Shown here: one piece after another, positions 48,225-54,992 of the stretch
Layout: each line of letters begins with the position of its first letter
Numbering within the stretch: the first letter of the stretch is position 1
NCBI GenBank assembly: GCA_016786585.1
Contig: JAEUUI010000007.1
Span: forward strand, 248,001 to 312,000
Length of the DNA: 64,000 nucleotides
Direction: 5' to 3'
Origin: Cyclobacteriaceae bacterium
Lineage (GTDB): Bacteria; Bacteroidota; Bacteroidia; Cytophagales; Cyclobacteriaceae
Notes under the pieces: model-generated
The model's database searches: none
Told to the model about the DNA's origin: nothing
The model's input: the letters and a program-made list of their open reading frames with translations, nothing else
Made by a program: the position numbers and the translations under genes

Positions 48225-49463
48225 ATGTCAAACCGCACCCCTGCTCTTGGTTTTATTTTCGTTACGCTCTTGTTGGATGTAATCGGCTTCGGAATTATCA
48301 TTCCGGTTATGCCTGATCTGATCATTGAACTTTCCGGTCGTACCGGATCTCCGGATGAATTGTTAAGCTTTGCTTCGAAAATCGGAGGATGGATGATCGC
48401 GTCTTATGCATTTACGCAATTCTTATGTGCCCCGATTGTAGGCGGACTGAGTGACCGGTATGGACGGAGACCGGTTTTGTTAGGATCACTTTTCGGGTTT
48501 GGTGTCGACTATCTTTTTTTGGCAATGGCGCCTTCACTCTCGTGGTTATTTGTTGGTCGTATCATCGCAGGTGTTATGGGGGCAAGTTTTACTACGGCAG
48601 GTGCGTACATAGCCGATATCAGTACACCCGAAAAGCGTGCTCAGAACTTTGGAATGATTGGAGCAGCGTTCGGCCTTGGCTTTATCATCGGACCTTTGAT
48701 GGGTGGCTTATTGGCTGATTACGGAACACGCACGCCATTTTTTGTTTGTGCCGGGATAACGTTGTTGAATTGGTTATTTGGATTCTTTATCCTTCCGGAG
48801 TCACTTAAGGAAGAAAACAGGCGGAAGTTTGAATGGGAACGCGCTAACCCGATCGGCACCTTGAAAAGCCTCACGCGATACCCGGTTATTTCAGGATTGA
48901 TCTTATCGCTTGCATTCATTTACATTTCCGCGCATGCCGTGCAAACTAACTGGGCATATTTTGTGAAGGCAAAGTTTGGTTGGGATGCTTCTCAAATCGG
49001 TTGGTCGCTTGCCGTTGTGGGAATAGCATTTGCTGTTATTCAGGGCGGATTGATTCGGTTTATCATTCCCAAGCTCGGCCAGGAGCGGAGTGTTTACCTG
49101 GGCATTGGACTTTATGCGATTGGATTTCTATTATATGGTATCGCACCGGAAGGCTGGATGGTTTATCCGGTCATTATCATTTATTGTTTGGGTAGCATTG
49201 CCGGTCCCGCATTGCAGGGAATTATGTCGTCTTCCATTCCGCCTAACGAGCAAGGTGAGTTGCAGGGCGGTTTTACAAGTTTGATGAGTCTTGCGGCTAT
49301 TATCGGGCCACTATTAATGAATGGAACTTTTGCGTGGTTTACCGGCGACAACGCTCCCGTTTACTTTCCGGGAGCAGCCATGATCCTGGGGGCTGTTCTT
49401 ACACTCATTGCATCGCTGCTGGCGCGCAATACCCTTAAGAAACATCAGGTTAAGGCAACCTAA
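48225..49463 (+). CDS. TetA/TCR-family MFS transporter
   Basis: 412 residues with twelve predicted transmembrane helices. The N-terminus [24 protein letters not shown] and motif [15 protein letters not shown] closely follow tetracycline-resistance-type (TCR/Tet) exporters, and [39 protein letters not shown] is the family-typical helix 4-5 region. It probably exports a hydrophobic compound by proton antiport; resistance to tetracycline should not be assumed for a chromosomal Bacteroidota homologue. Its TAA overlaps the ATG of the next gene (TAATG). Confidence 0.88.
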
Positions 49464-50244: not shown

Positions 50245-51348
50245 TTAAACCCGTTCGCTCTCCTTGTTCATTACTTTCGTCTGAATCTGAATTGATTCAT
50301 TATGGATGAGTTTCAGCATGTCTTTGATAAACTCCTCGCTTAACCCCATCGCCATGCTCATGGCCAAACGCGTTGCAATGATTTCTTCCCAGCGACCAAC
50401 CTGCAGGATGGTAACGTTATTTTCTTTTTTGTACTGACCGATTTTCTCGGAGATCGTCATGCGCTTGGCAAGCTTTTGCATAATCTCATCGTCAAGCTGG
50501 TCAATCTGCTCACGCAGCACAGCCAGCGTGTCTTTGAAGTTTTTGTTATCGGTTGACGGCTTGCGGGCAACCAATCCTTCAATGATGTTGCCGAGTACGG
50601 CTGGTGTCACCTGCTGTTTTGCATCGCTCCATGCTGCATCAGGGTTAATATGACTTTCAATCATTAGTCCGCTCATGTTCAGGTCAATCGCCTTCTGACT
50701 GATCAGTGCAATCAATTCACGGTTACCGGCAATGTGACTCGGGTCGCAAAGAATATCAAGCTCAGGAATCCTGGTTTTTAATTCAATGGCCAAATCCCAC
50801 ATCGGAGCATTACGGAACGGTCCTTTATCGAAAGAAGAGAATCCGCGGTGAATCGCTGCAAGTTTCTTAATACCAGCTTTGTTCAACCGCTCCAGCGCAC
50901 CAATCCAAAGTTCGAGATCCGGGTTAACCGGGTTCTTCACCATCACCGGAATATCAACTCCTTTTAGTGAATCGGCAATCTCCTGTACGGAGAATGGGTT
51001 TACTGTTGTGCGGGCACCAACCCAAAGGATATCAACGCCTGCTTTCAAACATGCTTCTACGTGTGAAGCGTTCGCTACTTCGGTTGTTACCGGCAACCCG
51101 GTTTCTTTTTTTGCCTGGATCAACCATGCCAATCCTTCTGCTCCCGAACCTTCGTATTGACCGGGACGCGTTCTGGGTTTCCAGATTCCGGCACGCAACG
51201 CGTTCACTTTACCGGTTGCGGCAAGTTGTTTTGCGGTAGCGATGGTTTGACTTTCTGTTTCTGCGCTGCAAGGGCCACTGATAACAGCCGGCAGGCCATT
51301 CGTTGGCAACCAGGTTGACATTGCTTCGAGCTCCAATTCCTTCTTCAT
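50245..51348 (-). CDS. Bifunctional DAHP synthase / chorismate mutase
   Basis: 367 residues. The N-terminal part (about 15-265) is a type I-beta DAHP synthase: ISGPCSAE, RAGIWKPRTRPGQYEGSG, VMVKNP, AIHRGF, CDPSHIAGNR and MIESHINPDAA. It condenses phosphoenolpyruvate and erythrose 4-phosphate. The C-terminal ~90 residues (LREQIDQLDDEIMQKLAKRMTISEKIGQYKKEN) are an AroQ-type chorismate mutase. A fused mutase domain often confers feedback control by prephenate in this subfamily. It is the last gene of the aromatic operon, 21 bases after tyrA, and precedes a terminator. The usual SPCSA-like site reads GPCSA here. Confidence 0.95.
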   Translation of the reverse strand: MKKELELEAMSTWLPTNGLPAVISGPCSAETESQTIATAKQLAATGKVNALRAGIWKPRTRPGQYEGSGAEGLAWLIQAKKETGLPVTTEVANASHVEACLKAGVDILWVGARTTVNPFSVQEIADSLKGVDIPVMVKNPVNPDLELWIGALERLNKAGIKKLAAIHRGFSSFDKGPFRNAPMWDLAIELKTRIPELDILCDPSHIAGNRELIALISQKAIDLNMSGLMIESHINPDAAWSDAKQQVTPAVLGNIIEGLVARKPSTDNKNFKDTLAVLREQIDQLDDEIMQKLAKRMTISEKIGQYKKENNVTILQVGRWEEIIATRLAMSMAMGLSEEFIKDMLKLIHNESIQIQTKVMNKESERV

Positions 51349-51369: not shown

Positions 51370-52236
51370 TTATTGTTTTTGTTTCAGTTCAATTCCATTC
51401 AATACTTCACGAATGCGGTTTGCATCTTTCATGATTTTGTGAAGCTCTTTCACGTCACGCTTCATCAGGTGATACTGAAACCGCTGCAAGTGCATAATGT
51501 ATTCCAGTAACGCCTGGCTCAAATGCTCGGCATTCTGTTCAAATATCGGTGCCCACATGTCGGGTGAACTTTTTGCAAGACGTACGGTAGACGAGAAACC
51601 GCTGCCGGCCAATGCAAAAATATTTTTTTCATCGCGCTCAATATCCAATACTGTTTGGCCAAGTAAGAACGAGCTCACATGTGAAAGATGTGATACGTAC
51701 GCCACGTGTTTGTCGTGCTCGGCCGCATCCATGTAAATGGTTTTCATGCCAAGGGCGTTAAAGATTTTTTCAGCCAGCAATAATGCGCGCTCGGATGATT
51801 TTTCTTTTTCGCAGATGATGTTTGTCTTGTTCTGGAATAATCCTGAAAACGCTGCCGTTGGGCCGGAATTTTCGGTACCGGCAATCGGATGAGCCGCCAC
51901 GAACTGCCCCCGGTTCTTATGGCCGGATACCACTTTGCAAACCGAGCTTTTCGTTGAGCCGGTGTCAACCACAACCGCATCTTTTTTTACGGAATCAAGA
52001 ATAGTTGGCAGCAATTGACTCAACACGCTTACCGGGATGGCGATCACAATCAGATCGGCCGTAGAAATGGATTTTGCTTCCGTGTCAATCGAATCAACAA
52101 GCTTCAGTTCAAGCGCTTTTTCAGCATGATCTTTATTCAGATCAATACCGGTGAATTCGGTTGCCAGGCCAGCCTTTCGCAAATCAATTGCGATCGAACC
52201 GCCAATAAGTCCTAAACCGATAATGGTTGTTTTCAT
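51370..52236 (-). CDS. tyrA: Prephenate dehydrogenase
   Basis: 288 residues. The NAD(P)-binding GxGLIGGS loop is at the very N-terminus (MKTTIIGLGLIGGSIAIDLRKAG). VDTGSTKSSV, AAHPIAGTENSG, DKHVAYVSHLSHVSSFLL and LAGSGFSSTVRLAKSSPDMW are the substrate and catalytic blocks of TyrA, including the catalytic His in AAHPIAG. It oxidatively decarboxylates prephenate to 4-hydroxyphenylpyruvate, the tyrosine branch. It overlaps the upstream aminotransferase gene by 4 bases. Confidence 0.95.
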   Translation of the reverse strand: MKTTIIGLGLIGGSIAIDLRKAGLATEFTGIDLNKDHAEKALELKLVDSIDTEAKSISTADLIVIAIPVSVLSQLLPTILDSVKKDAVVVDTGSTKSSVCKVVSGHKNRGQFVAAHPIAGTENSGPTAAFSGLFQNKTNIICEKEKSSERALLLAEKIFNALGMKTIYMDAAEHDKHVAYVSHLSHVSSFLLGQTVLDIERDEKNIFALAGSGFSSTVRLAKSSPDMWAPIFEQNAEHLSQALLEYIMHLQRFQYHLMKRDVKELHKIMKDANRIREVLNGIELKQKQ

Positions 52237-53423
52237 GCTTTTTCGGTTTGGAGTTTAGTTTTCGTGTGAACAAATTTTTCAATACGATCGCACGCTTCTT
52301 TAATTTTTTCCACCGGGCTGCACAATGAGATGCGGATATAGCGTCTTCCTGCTTCACCGAAAATGAATCCCGGGGTGATAAACACTTTTGTGCCGTAAAG
52401 AATTTCATCTATGAAGGTCTCAACGTTGCTGATCGTTTCCGGAGCTTTTGCCCACACAAACAGACCCGACTGTTTTGACTCGTACGTACATCCCAGCACG
52501 TCAAGAATTTTATGCGCAGCCGCCCTGCGTTCGATGTAAATTTTATTCAAATCGCTAAACCATTCATCGCTGCTTTGCAACGCTTCCACGGCTGCATGTT
52601 GCAAACCCAGGAACATGCCCGAGTCCATGTTGCTTTTTACTTTCAGCACCGCATCGATGTATTCTTTTTTCCCGGCAACCCAGCCTATGCGCCAGCCGGC
52701 CATGTTATGCGATTTGCTTAGCGAGTTGAGTTCAAGCGCAACATCTTCTGCACCCGGTACCGACAAAATGCTGAGCGGCTCATCATTAAGAATGAGACTG
52801 TACGGATTGTCGTTTACAATCAGAAAGTTGTTGGTACGCGCAAGGTCAACGAGCTCTTTTAATTCATCCGTTGATGCAATCCGTCCAGTAGGCATGTGTG
52901 GAAAATTAACCCACATAATTTTCACCTTTGAAAGGTCGGTCTTGCGAAGTGCGTCAACATCAATTCCCCACTTTAGTTCTTCTTTTAACGCGTACGTTTT
53001 AATTTTTCCGCCTACCAGATTGGCGACAGACGAGTAGGTTGGGTATCCCGGATCAGGAATCAGGATTTCATCACCCTCGTTCACAAAAGCCATCGCGATG
53101 TGCATGATGCCCTCCTTCGATCCCATCAACGGGAGAATCATGTTTTCTGCATCAAGCGTAACATTATAAATGCGTTTGTAAAAATCAGCAATACCTTTCC
53201 GTAGTTGAGGAATTCCTTTGTAATTCTGGTAGCCATGATTGGCCGGATTGTTTGCTGACTCGATCAGCGCGTTGATAGCCGATGGGGCAGGAGCCATATC
53301 CGGACTGCCGATGCCTAAGTTTATCACGCGATGTTCAGGCGTATCCAAACTGCGTACCTCAGCAAGTTTTCTGCTGAAGTAATATTCTTCTACGGCCTGA
53401 ATGCGTTTTGCAGTTTGTATCAT
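52233..53423 (-). CDS. PLP-dependent class I/II aminotransferase (probable aromatic aminotransferase)
   Basis: 396 residues, fold-type I. NLGIGSPDMAPAPSAINAL, HGYQNYKGIPQLRKGIADFY, PDPGYPTYSSVANLVGG and the PLP-Lys motif SLSKSHNMAGWRIGW are visible. The conserved NNPT-like loop reads VNFPHMPTG and NDNPYS places the cofactor-binding Asn/Asp region. It lies between pheA (2-base gap) and tyrA (4-base overlap), so the likely role is conversion of phenylpyruvate and 4-hydroxyphenylpyruvate to Phe and Tyr, with glutamate or aspartate as donor. Sequence alone could also fit an aspartate or LL-diaminopimelate-type enzyme; the operon decides. Confidence 0.9.
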   Translation of the reverse strand: MIQTAKRIQAVEEYYFSRKLAEVRSLDTPEHRVINLGIGSPDMAPAPSAINALIESANNPANHGYQNYKGIPQLRKGIADFYKRIYNVTLDAENMILPLMGSKEGIMHIAMAFVNEGDEILIPDPGYPTYSSVANLVGGKIKTYALKEELKWGIDVDALRKTDLSKVKIMWVNFPHMPTGRIASTDELKELVDLARTNNFLIVNDNPYSLILNDEPLSILSVPGAEDVALELNSLSKSHNMAGWRIGWVAGKKEYIDAVLKVKSNMDSGMFLGLQHAAVEALQSSDEWFSDLNKIYIERRAAAHKILDVLGCTYESKQSGLFVWAKAPETISNVETFIDEILYGTKVFITPGFIFGEAGRRYIRISLCSPVEKIKEACDRIEKFVHTKTKLQTEKA

Positions 53424-53425
53424 AC

Positions 53426-54265
53426 CTAAAACTTGATCTGTGCTTTTTTATATTCTCCCAAAATATTGAGGTTCTTCACCTGCTGTAGTACATCGCGTAC
53501 GGCCGTGTCGTAGTCCTTTCGTTTTTTCCATTCCACGTCCACATGAATGGAGTATTCGCTCGGACGCCCGATGATCGGAATCGACTGAATTTTTGAGAGG
53601 TTAATGCTGTGTTCTTTAAACGTGGTTAACGCATCGGCCAGACTGCCCACGTGATTTGCTACTTCAAAGCTGAGTGACGCTTTGTTACTTTCCACATTCG
53701 CTTTGGCCCTGCGATTAAGAATTAAAAAACGTGTGAAATTTTTCTTATTGGTTTCGATCCGCTTTTCGAGAATATTCAGTCCGAATTTTTTTGCGGCATA
53801 TTCATTCGCGATCGCAGCGGTGTCTTTCAGCTTGAAATCTTTTACGCGTTTTGCTGAAACGGCAGTGTCATCGCTTTCGCGGATTTCAACGCCTTTTAAT
53901 GAGAAGAGAAACTCCGAGCACTGACGAATTGCCATAGGATGCGACTCAATCGAAGTAATATCTTCGAGCTTCACACCCGGAAGCGCGAGCAAATGCATGT
54001 GAATCGGCAGGTACAATTCTCCCACAATGCTGAAGTGATAGTCCTGTAAAAGGAAGTAGTTGGGAAGAATACTTCCTGCAATGGAATTTTCGATTGCCAT
54101 CACTGCCACATCCGCCTTTCCGCTTTTCAACGCTTCACACAATTTGTGAAATGAAAGACACTCGATGGTTTCGATCGGCCCTTCAAAATACGTGAGTGCT
54201 GCTACTTCGTGAAAGCTGGTAGCAATACCCTGAATTGCAACGCGTAATTTTTTCTTCTTCGCCAT
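53426..54265 (-). CDS. pheA: Prephenate dehydratase with ACT domain
   Basis: 279 residues. The catalytic dehydratase region (about 8-190) carries VAIQGIATSFHEVAA (in place of G-P-x-G-T-F-S), VAVMAIENSIAGS, ESHPMAIRQCSEFL and NFTRFLIL. The ACT regulatory domain (about 200-275) has GSLADALTTFKEHSINLSKIQSIPIIGRPSEYSIHVDVE, including the ESRP-like Phe-binding segment. It makes phenylpyruvate from prephenate and is likely feedback-inhibited by phenylalanine. The start codon is directly adjacent to the U-tract of the attenuator, so expression is set by the leader at 54266-54410. Confidence 0.95.
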   Translation of the reverse strand: MAKKKKLRVAIQGIATSFHEVAALTYFEGPIETIECLSFHKLCEALKSGKADVAVMAIENSIAGSILPNYFLLQDYHFSIVGELYLPIHMHLLALPGVKLEDITSIESHPMAIRQCSEFLFSLKGVEIRESDDTAVSAKRVKDFKLKDTAAIANEYAAKKFGLNILEKRIETNKKNFTRFLILNRRAKANVESNKASLSFEVANHVGSLADALTTFKEHSINLSKIQSIPIIGRPSEYSIHVDVEWKKRKDYDTAVRDVLQQVKNLNILGEYKKAQIKF

Positions 54266-54366
54266 AAAAACAAAAAGTCCCGGTTTTTCCGGGACTTCTT
54301 TTGAGTTCTTGTATCGTCTAAATTCAGCAACAACACTCCGCTCTTCTAAGTCCCGCCTGGGTCTTA
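54266..54366 (-). promoter_or_regulatory. Ribosome-mediated transcription attenuator of the Phe/Tyr operon
   Basis: Three competing pairings can be drawn on the minus-strand RNA. 1:2 is TAAGACCC (54366-54359) with GGGACTTA (54354-54347), one A-A mismatch. 2:3 is CGGGACTT (54355-54348) with AAGTCCCG (54297-54290), a perfect 8 bp. 3:4 is AAGTCCCGG (54297-54289) with CCGGGACTT (54283-54275), a perfect 9 bp with an A5 loop, followed by TTTGTTTTT. Segment 1 begins within the last aromatic codon, so a ribosome stalled on the aromatic run covers it, frees segment 2 to pair with 3, and prevents the terminator. With plentiful charged tRNA the 1:2 hairpin and the terminator form. The U-tract ends one base before the pheA ATG. 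Confidence 0.9.
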
Positions 54367-54410
54367 AAATAGAAGTACCAAAAGTAAAAGAATGAGTGGC
54401 TGAGCTTCAT
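54324..54410 (-). CDS. Aromatic leader peptide (28 aa) of the pheA operon attenuator
   Basis: ATG at 54408-54410, stop TGA at 54324-54326. The peptide contains nine aromatic residues in a row at positions 7-15, FFYFWYFYF (five Phe, three Tyr, one Trp), coded at 54392-54366. The codons are TTC TTT TAC TTT TGG TAC TTC TAT TTT. This composition is far outside chance and is the classical form of an attenuation leader peptide. A longer in-frame start at 54548 exists but lies upstream of the probable promoter. After the run the peptide continues KTQAGLRRAECCC; coding for this part supplies the antiterminator RNA. Confidence 0.93.
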   Translation of the reverse strand: MKLSHSFFYFWYFYFKTQAGLRRAECCC

Positions 54411-54428: not shown

Positions 54429-54460
54429 TAAAGATAGAATCATTTTATCGCAAGGTGCAA
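54429..54460 (-). promoter_or_regulatory. Candidate promoter of the aromatic operon
   Basis: On the minus strand TATCTTTA (54436-54429) differs from TAnnTTTG by one base. TTG (54460-54458) lies 21 bases upstream as the -33 element. The leader ATG at 54410 is about 18 bases downstream of the -7 box. Confidence 0.4.
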
Positions 54461-54560: not shown

Positions 54561-54992
54561 ATGAAAAATGCGTTAAAATTGCTGTTTTTAGCCCTAATTG
54601 CAGTTTCAGGCTGCGGCAAGTCCACATCAGAATCTTCCGGTTCGGCCGACAGTTTAGCAAATGAAAGCAAGGCGCTGTATAGCCGCGCGATGGACATTCA
54701 CGATGAAGTCATGCCGAAAATGGATGACCTCTATCGCCTGAAGAGCCAGCTGAAAGACACACTTGGCAGCGCTTCACTTACGCCAGAGGCAAAAGCAGAT
54801 TTTGAAGGACGCATACATTTAATAGACTCAGCCGAGAAGTCGATGATGGACTGGATGCACGACAATCGCCTGCGCCCGATTCAGGATACAACCAACCTTG
54901 AATCGTACAGGCAATACATGAAAGCAAAAGTTGAAAGCGCTGAACGCATGAAAGCGTTGATGCTCGAAGCGATTGAAAAAGGTAAACTCTGA
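54561..54992 (+). CDS. Small helical lipoprotein of unknown function
   Basis: 143 residues. The signal peptide ends in a lipobox (AVSGC, Cys at about 18), followed by a Ser-rich linker and a mostly alpha-helical region (ALYSRAMDIHDEVMPKMDDLYRLKSQLKD ... LEAIEKGKL). The pattern of HDEVMPKM and EKSMMDWMHDN recalls a conserved Bacteroidota lipoprotein group that is sometimes misnamed viral A-type inclusion protein. The role is unknown; it probably faces the periplasm from the outer or inner membrane. gcvT begins 24 bases downstream. Confidence 0.8.
   Translation: MKNALKLLFLALIAVSGCGKSTSESSGSADSLANESKALYSRAMDIHDEVMPKMDDLYRLKSQLKDTLGSASLTPEAKADFEGRIHLIDSAEKSMMDWMHDNRLRPIQDTTNLESYRQYMKAKVESAERMKALMLEAIEKGKL

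Follow-up and report, generated by a model that had tools for sequence, protein, structure and literature searches.

A predicted ribosome-mediated attenuator reading both Phe and Tyr codons ahead of the pheA operon in a Cyclobacteriaceae bacterium

In enterobacteria, the gene for prephenate dehydratase, pheA, is preceded by pheL, a short Phe-rich ORF combined with alternative antiterminator and terminator structures. The pheL leader has Phe but no Tyr codons, and stands before a single pheA gene. Other leaders read more than one amino acid, as in the ilvGMEDA and thr leaders of Escherichia coli. A 2004 survey by Vitreschak and colleagues is said to name Bacteroidetes/Chlorobi among attenuator carriers.

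Within the Bacteroidota, an attenuator was predicted before the pheA > hisHb > aroAIbeta-aroQ > tyrA operon of Bacteroides thetaiotaomicron (Song et al., 2005; PMC1173090, Table 7, drawing on Merino's database), the only Bacteroidota entry in the part of that table examined; it is a database prediction of an attenuator, and as the word “leader” is absent from the accessible PMC1173090 text, it comes with no leader peptide there. In Flavobacterium psychrophilum, a study with transcript mapping mentions clues for leader-peptide attenuation before amino-acid biosynthesis operons, in one sentence of the accessible text that names neither operons nor leaders (PMC9723704). The Bacteroid-trp RNA (RF01692), a cis-regulatory RNA of Bacteroidota, is tied to trp genes by its name (PMC2864571). 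Among the matches listed from the open-licence literature, which misses most subscription journals, there was no described Phe/Tyr leader in Bacteroidota.

We analyzed a 64,000-nucleotide stretch of Cyclobacteriaceae DNA, hereafter the window, in which four genes of aromatic amino-acid biosynthesis lie in series on the minus strand: pheA (53426-54265), encoding a prephenate dehydratase with an ACT domain (Pfam PDT, E 2.8e-55; ACT, 26.7 bits, just below the cut-off of 27); a class I/II aminotransferase (52233-53423; Pfam Aminotran_1_2, E 1.1e-66); tyrA, encoding prephenate dehydrogenase (51370-52236; NCBIfam NF006307, 355 bits against a cut-off of 295); and a DAHP synthase fused to a type II chorismate mutase (DAHPS-CM, 50245-51348; Pfam DAHP_synth_1, E 8.4e-35; CM_2, E 2.7e-22). 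The genes are separated by gaps of 2 and 21 nt and joined by one 4-nt overlap, and the Pfam and NCBIfam matches bear out the gene order given in the first-pass annotation of this DNA. The window also holds an MFS transporter on the plus strand (48225-49463; Pfam MFS_1), which falls under the cut-off of all 25 NCBIfam models listed, the best match being a tetracycline-efflux family at 319 bits against 475. Among the matches listed, the best named relatives of this PheA are Chryseosolibacter indicus (79%) and Cyclobacteriaceae metagenome-assembled genomes, a list from which the nearest may be missing. The four-gene set is one of several arrangements: among 80 named loci, the complete set occurs in the window's order in 13; another 52 combine pheA with DAHPS-CM, no aminotransferase or tyrA being recognised, and 15 have other or shorter sets.

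Upstream of pheA we find a predicted leader ORF of 28 codons on the same strand (54324-54410; ATG at 54410, stop codon TGA at 54326-54324), with the peptide MKLSHSFFYFWYFYFKTQAGLRRAECCC. Codons 7-15 (54366-54392) are an unbroken aromatic run of nine (F F Y F W Y F Y F), which we propose as the sensor of Phe and Tyr charging. Sequence and coordinates agree with the earlier description of this ORF and its aromatic run, and leader-type ORFs are conserved before pheA in relatives.

The leader RNA contains the segments of a putative attenuator, all on the minus strand. Segment 1 (UUUUAAGACCC, 54359-54369) overlaps the last Phe codon, and pairs with segment 2 both in the predicted fold and in the ribosome-masking model described below. 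Segment 2 (GGGACUUAGAA, 54354-54344), which as the antiterminator 5' arm reads CGGGACUUAGAA (54344-54355), lies inside the leader ORF; segment 3 (AAGUCCCGG, 54289-54297) is common to antiterminator and terminator; and segment 4 (CCGGGACUU, 54275-54283), placed by pairing and coordinates, is the terminator 3' arm, ending in a U-run (UUUUUGUUUUU, 54266-54276) that adjoins the pheA ATG at 54265. The 9-bp terminator with a U-tract touching this ATG was correctly recognised at first pass, and its stem reaches 12 pairs counting A-U and G-U. The three pairings proposed there (1:2, 2:3 and 3:4) are likewise present in the window, although the 1:2 helix contains an A.A mismatch. We also find a second, inner antiterminator helix absent from that description, seen in the fold and placed by coordinates, between GAGUGUUGU (54330-54338) and ACAAGAACUC (54303-54312). 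The fold of the 167-nt leader is bettered by only 1 of 200 shuffles (z -3.1). The inner helix carries a UUGU element, located past segment 2 and almost unchanged throughout the clade, which the window's extended leader reads as Cys codons. This element is predicted to form its pairs within the antiterminator; 25 of 26 clade leaders have it, and in these its mean probability of downstream pairing is 0.97 (lowest 0.48).

From sequence and modelling together we consider it very probable that this locus is a ribosome-mediated transcription attenuator, sensing the charging of tRNA-Phe and tRNA-Tyr together ahead of the pheA operon. Transcription would start just 5' of the leader, at about 54424, and a ribosome would translate the leader behind RNA polymerase. 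When charged Phe- or Tyr-tRNA is short, the ribosome would stall in the aromatic codons, cover or destabilise segment 1, and leave segment 2 free; free segment 2 would pair with the emerging segment 3, no terminator would form, and pheA, the aminotransferase, tyrA and DAHPS-CM would be transcribed. When both charged tRNAs are plentiful, the ribosome would run over segment 2 or reach the stop codon, leaving segment 3 to pair with segment 4, and transcription would end at 54266-54276, before pheA.

Such a device would work like the proteobacterial trp and pheL attenuators. It differs from pheL in that Phe and Tyr codons are mixed, and in that it precedes both branches plus DAHP synthase. The reading of several amino acids by one leader is shared with the E. 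coli ilvGMEDA and thr leaders, although the amino acids differ. The predicted B. thetaiotaomicron attenuator, as entered in Table 7 of PMC1173090, comes from the same phylum and likewise stands before pheA in an operon of the same four activities, and the F. psychrophilum clues concern the same phylum and mechanism (PMC9723704). The first-pass annotation was unsure whether a Bacteroidota version had been described; an attenuator before the B. thetaiotaomicron operon had in fact been predicted in 2005, without a leader as far as the accessible text of PMC1173090 goes. We conclude that the pheA device is well supported, that its type of mechanism was already known, and that an attenuator before an equivalent operon was already predicted.

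A possible promoter lies upstream of the leader. The candidate -7 box TATCTTTA (54429-54436, minus strand) is 19-26 nt 5' of the leader start, with a TTGC 20 nt upstream of the box (54460-54457), and is one letter off TAnnTTTG, which we take to be the Bacteroidota -7 promoter consensus. Across 127 leaders from relatives and the window, the start positions of TAnnTTTG peak 26-30 nt 5' of the leader start, and 62 of 127 have TAnnTTTG or TATCTTTR at most 75 nt upstream of that start, whereas a control stretch of 75 nt inside the leader contains one of them in only 6 of 127.

The nearest upstream gene, a lipoprotein-like ORF at 54561-54992 with its start at 54561, is divergent, so the terminator can act only on pheA transcripts. 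This bears on the simplest alternative, that a chance ORF happens to stand beside the terminator of an upstream gene. Three loci (L097, L107 and L110) do have a hairpin and U-run before pheA with no aromatic ORF, as chance association would allow, but in the window the orientation of the neighbouring gene, together with conservation, refutes this explanation, to which we assign a practically negligible probability. The combination itself is rare. In six-frame translation of the window, the nine-codon run is the sole aromatic run longer than six, the next longest being six, and a scan of the 64-kb window for ATG-started short ORFs with runs of any of nine residue sets plus a strong terminator gave no second case. 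Among 2461 control windows drawn from 40 of the 80 named loci, a strict detector of aromatic ORF plus terminator fired in 8, always on runs of three, and a relaxed detector fired in 12 of 1663 (from 27 of the 80); the latter is an upper figure, because the control may include the real leaders of L047 and L059, whose pheA falls outside the excluded stretch. The device thus appears in 0.3-0.7% of control windows. The strict detector overlooked five terminators visible by eye (L136, L155 and L157-L159), all recovered by the relaxed one, which in turn overlooked six strict finds (L055, L056, L059, L101, L145 and L154).

With either detector, we found the device upstream of pheA in 132 of 196 regions examined, a sample drawn mostly from the better PheA hits, in which certain assemblies occur both as a named and as an unnamed record, and which gives no frequency for the phylum. 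In the window's family, 112 genomes gave a PheA match, of which 61, the most distant matches included, were outside the survey; by PheA identity, the device is present in 11 of 11 genomes at 67% or more (window included), 8 of 15 at 43-51% (counting as lacking L027, which has no upstream sequence), and 1 of 27 mostly at 39-44%. Absence from close relatives would have told against an attenuator; the device is present in all 10 other family genomes with PheA 67-80% identical, and also in a further genome of the same genus (L113, 1 of 1). The seven other families sampled in the order and class all have it (f2, 3/3; f4, 11/11; f5, 9/9; f7, 6/6; f8, 5/5; f11/f12, 4/4); this survey leaves out f3, f6, f9 and f10, and f5, f7 and f11 hold more matching genomes than were sampled. 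Beyond the class, 6 of 9 regions have it at a strong PheA match and 0 of 15 at a weaker one.

Among named loci, the device is present in 14 of 14 labelled Cyclobacteriaceae, Flammeovirgaceae or Bacteroidetes (L032-L045, of which L032 is from Chryseosolibacter indicus), and in 53 of 53 mostly labelled Sphingobacterium, Pedobacter, Parapedobacter or Mucilaginibacter; one of these Sphingobacteriales-type loci, L047, is labelled Legionellaceae and is probably a mis-binned contig. It was found in none of 13 loci labelled Prolixibacteraceae, Draconibacterium, Sunxiuqinia, Mariniphaga, Maribellus, Flavobacteriales or unplaced Bacteroidota, a count in which L105, with only 79 nt upstream, is scored as lacking it. 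The comparison of upstream regions that had been suggested at first pass thus shows aromatic-rich short ORFs conserved before pheA in many, but not all, relatives. The 127 leaders counted here are 124 distinct sequences; three re-fetches (L112, L114 and L115, of L002, L010 and L008) are outside the 127 and the 196, and are included in the set of 130 leaders used for the masking model and the segment 3 swap test.

Among DAHPS-CM loci of family members, 4 of the 24 scanned (30 fetched) have an aromatic leader and terminator, although one of these, L267, is the pheA leader of L025, and another, L284, sits by coordinates 84 nt before its genome's pheA. The remaining two, L278 and L285, belong to family members whose pheA lacks a leader (G021 and G008), and there the leader and terminator stand directly before the DAHPS-CM gene, as if reshuffling of the genes had left the pathway under its original control.

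Distances in relatives bear on whether the hairpin and U-run mainly hide the pheA start, with termination secondary. Such translational control would fit the window, where the U-run touches the pheA ATG, and the many relatives in which the terminator is near pheA. In others the terminator starts much further upstream, its distance to the PheA match reaching about 255 nt in L153 (L142, L131 and L007 are further cases), so hiding the pheA start is not a common feature, and we regard translational control as most improbable beside transcription attenuation.

Pairing changes across leaders are clearest for the terminator. In 26 clade leaders, 98.2% of terminator cells are paired and 4 of 11 pairs have changed on both sides, a result reached by 3 of 500 shuffles; in 48 Sphingobacteriales-type leaders (from the 64 of group B, near-copies omitted), 98.1% are paired and 9 of 12 pairs have changed on both sides, reached by none of 500. 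For the 2:3 antiterminator the corresponding values are 95.7%, 2 of 8 and 37 of 500 shuffles in the clade, where a slid register shows 3 double changes against 2 in register, and 95.8%, 3 of 9 and 2 of 500 in the Sphingobacteriales-type leaders. When the partner is slid by one column, pairing falls to 54-71%. For the 1:2 helix, in contrast, a slide of one column costs nothing in score across the clade, and a clade-wide 1:2 helix is not supported. The compensatory changes sought after the first pass are thus clear in the terminator, few in the antiterminator, and leave the 1:2 register without support. In a swap test, a leader's own segment 3 beat the mean of unlike segment 3s for pairing with the antiterminator region in 123 of 130 leaders.

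A riboregulator that binds a protein or tRNA, such as a T-box or a TRAP-like factor, could also switch a terminator with the ORF incidental, and any factor of this sort could work with a terminator and antiterminator alone. Rfam scans gave no family above cut-off in the window, and no leader family in the loci of 20 relatives or in 9 loci of other operons; we accordingly rejected membership of a known Rfam family. Phe_leader (RF01859) scores 24 bits in the window against a gathering cut-off of 55, and its best score among the relatives scanned, 37.8 bits in L007 (E 0.005), is also under the cut-off. T-box is not among the Rfam matches listed, weak ones included, for the window and the relatives' loci, and Bacteroid-trp (RF01692) is not among the matches in the window, the 20 relatives' loci or three clade trp loci at the thresholds used. 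Since conservation of the ORF, and of the distance between it and segment 2, also far exceeds that in shuffles, we judge a riboregulator with an incidental ORF highly unlikely.

We modelled ribosome-mediated attenuation by masking the ribosome footprint codon by codon on the transcript up to segment 3, and reading out the probability of the 2:3 pairing, P(2:3). In the window, P(2:3) is 0.25 for a ribosome at codon 7 (the first Phe), 0.59 at codon 8, 0.68-0.71 at codons 9-15, and 0.00 at codons 16-26, so that in the model the first permissive stretch (codons 8-15) ends exactly after the last aromatic codon and codons 16-26 block. Codons 27-28, just before the stop, again permit the antiterminator (0.54 and 0.59); at the stop codon P(2:3) falls to 0.15, with the 1:2 helix at 0.63, and with no ribosome it is 0.32. 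This geometry is widespread: in 120 of 130 modelled leaders the permissive stretch closes at the last aromatic codon or at the codon after it. These comprise 29 of 29 in group A (three re-fetches included), 64 of 64 in group B, which is of Sphingobacteriales type, and 27 of the 37 remaining, more distant leaders, ten of which lack it. Taken jointly, three criteria hold for all 79 real leaders tested (of the 130) and for 8 of 237 shuffled ones.

How a finishing ribosome would block the antiterminator appears to vary among leaders. Mean P(2:3) at the stop codon is 0.00 in group B and 0.33 in group A, where extended ORFs contribute most of it. In 80 of 130 leaders this codon either falls on segment 2 or is no more than 12 nt away, so that the finishing ribosome can block the segment directly. 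For 35 of 130 the stop codon is 13-28 nt further along (26 nt for the window), and there the 1:2 helix may take over the blocking role, although its register is not conserved. A more permissive measure, counting any upstream partner of segment 3, gives 0.69 at the stall against 0.68 at the stop in the window, and 0.88 against 0.32 in group B; we report it beside pairing to segment 2 itself, which superseded it. With segment 4 present, the terminator has a probability of 0.98-1.00 in every ribosome state of this equilibrium model, so the decision of the switch must be kinetic.

The aromatic codons point to what is sensed. Phe and Tyr codons are mixed in the aromatic cluster of all 127 leaders counted, and both occur within the last four aromatic codons in 26 of 26 clade, 64 of 64 Sphingobacteriales-type and 33 of 37 other leaders; a Trp codon is present in 38 of 127. 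A sensor of either Phe or Tyr is therefore conserved, and the Trp input is not. This upholds the original proposal that one leader reads Phe and Tyr, but not the weak reading of Trp that it included.

These same leaders bear on whether the nascent chain could act instead, in the manner of TnaC, with free Phe or Tyr or a peptide-specific arrest stalling the ribosome and high amino acid inducing the operon. A short peptide before an amino-acid operon fits both readings, and our model gives the place of the stall, not its cause. The leaders, however, share aromatic richness and codon position while differing between groups in the order, number and flanking residues of the aromatic codons; the operon makes these amino acids and does not degrade them; and the His, Trp and Ile/Leu/Val leaders of the same genome each carry the codons of their own pathway. 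We consider nascent-chain action very unlikely, and favor ribosome-mediated attenuation of the combined Phe/Tyr operon, as first proposed, which is supported by sequence, conservation, pairing changes and the masking model.

The same genome carries leader ORFs before other amino-acid operons. Upstream of hisG (L211, G000:C7) is a His-rich leader, MRTTANIHLHHHHVLHTMRGRFMF, with an intrinsic terminator; counting this genome, a His leader and terminator are present in 9 of the 13 his loci that were scanned. Upstream of trpE (L222, G000:C7) is a Trp-Trp-Trp leader, MKRFSNIAWWWHISETDM, with a terminator, scoring 33.4 bits against Rfam Trp_leader, below the cut-off of 41; a terminator was recognised in 6 of 12 trp loci, and 5 more have a WWW ORF with no terminator recognised (own genome included). 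A leader with a long Ile/Val/Leu run and a terminator (L230, G000:C30) lies about 1.1 kb before an ilvD match, with another gene between. A first scan of 900 nt found no such ilv leader in 8 loci fetched; a longer rescan of 6 of these, own genome included and L234 and L235 left out, found leader and terminator in all 6. We count these codon-matched leaders and terminators before his, trp and ilv genes in favor of the pheA attenuator. Upstream of thrA (L250, G000:C30), the ORF MQRNFSHIIFTAIVIITITTTITG is rich in Thr and Ile, and its stop codon coincides with a GGGGTAACCC palindrome; among 6 thr loci scanned, own genome included, the ORF is in 4 and the palindrome in 5, and no U-run terminator was recognised, perhaps reflecting a different mode of control.

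We suggest that the pheA device, in which a single sensor would read two amino acids, offers a testable regulator for the two aromatic branches in a phylum that has been little studied. On a broader reading, a Phe-or-Tyr attenuator would be ancestral to the Bacteroidia and, taken with the leader ORFs for His, Trp, Ile/Leu/Val and Thr in this genome, would make ribosome-mediated attenuation the usual control of amino-acid operons there; we lean only slightly towards this reading, because named loci of the same class lack the device. The leaders also draw attention to a kind of short ORF that is often passed over in genome annotation. Bacteroidota mRNAs mostly lack Shine-Dalgarno sites. Because attenuation needs a ribosome close behind RNA polymerase, its wide conservation is indirect evidence of coupling in this phylum, and ancestral, default attenuation, if true, would imply that transcription and translation are coupled in Bacteroidota although Shine-Dalgarno sequences are mostly missing.
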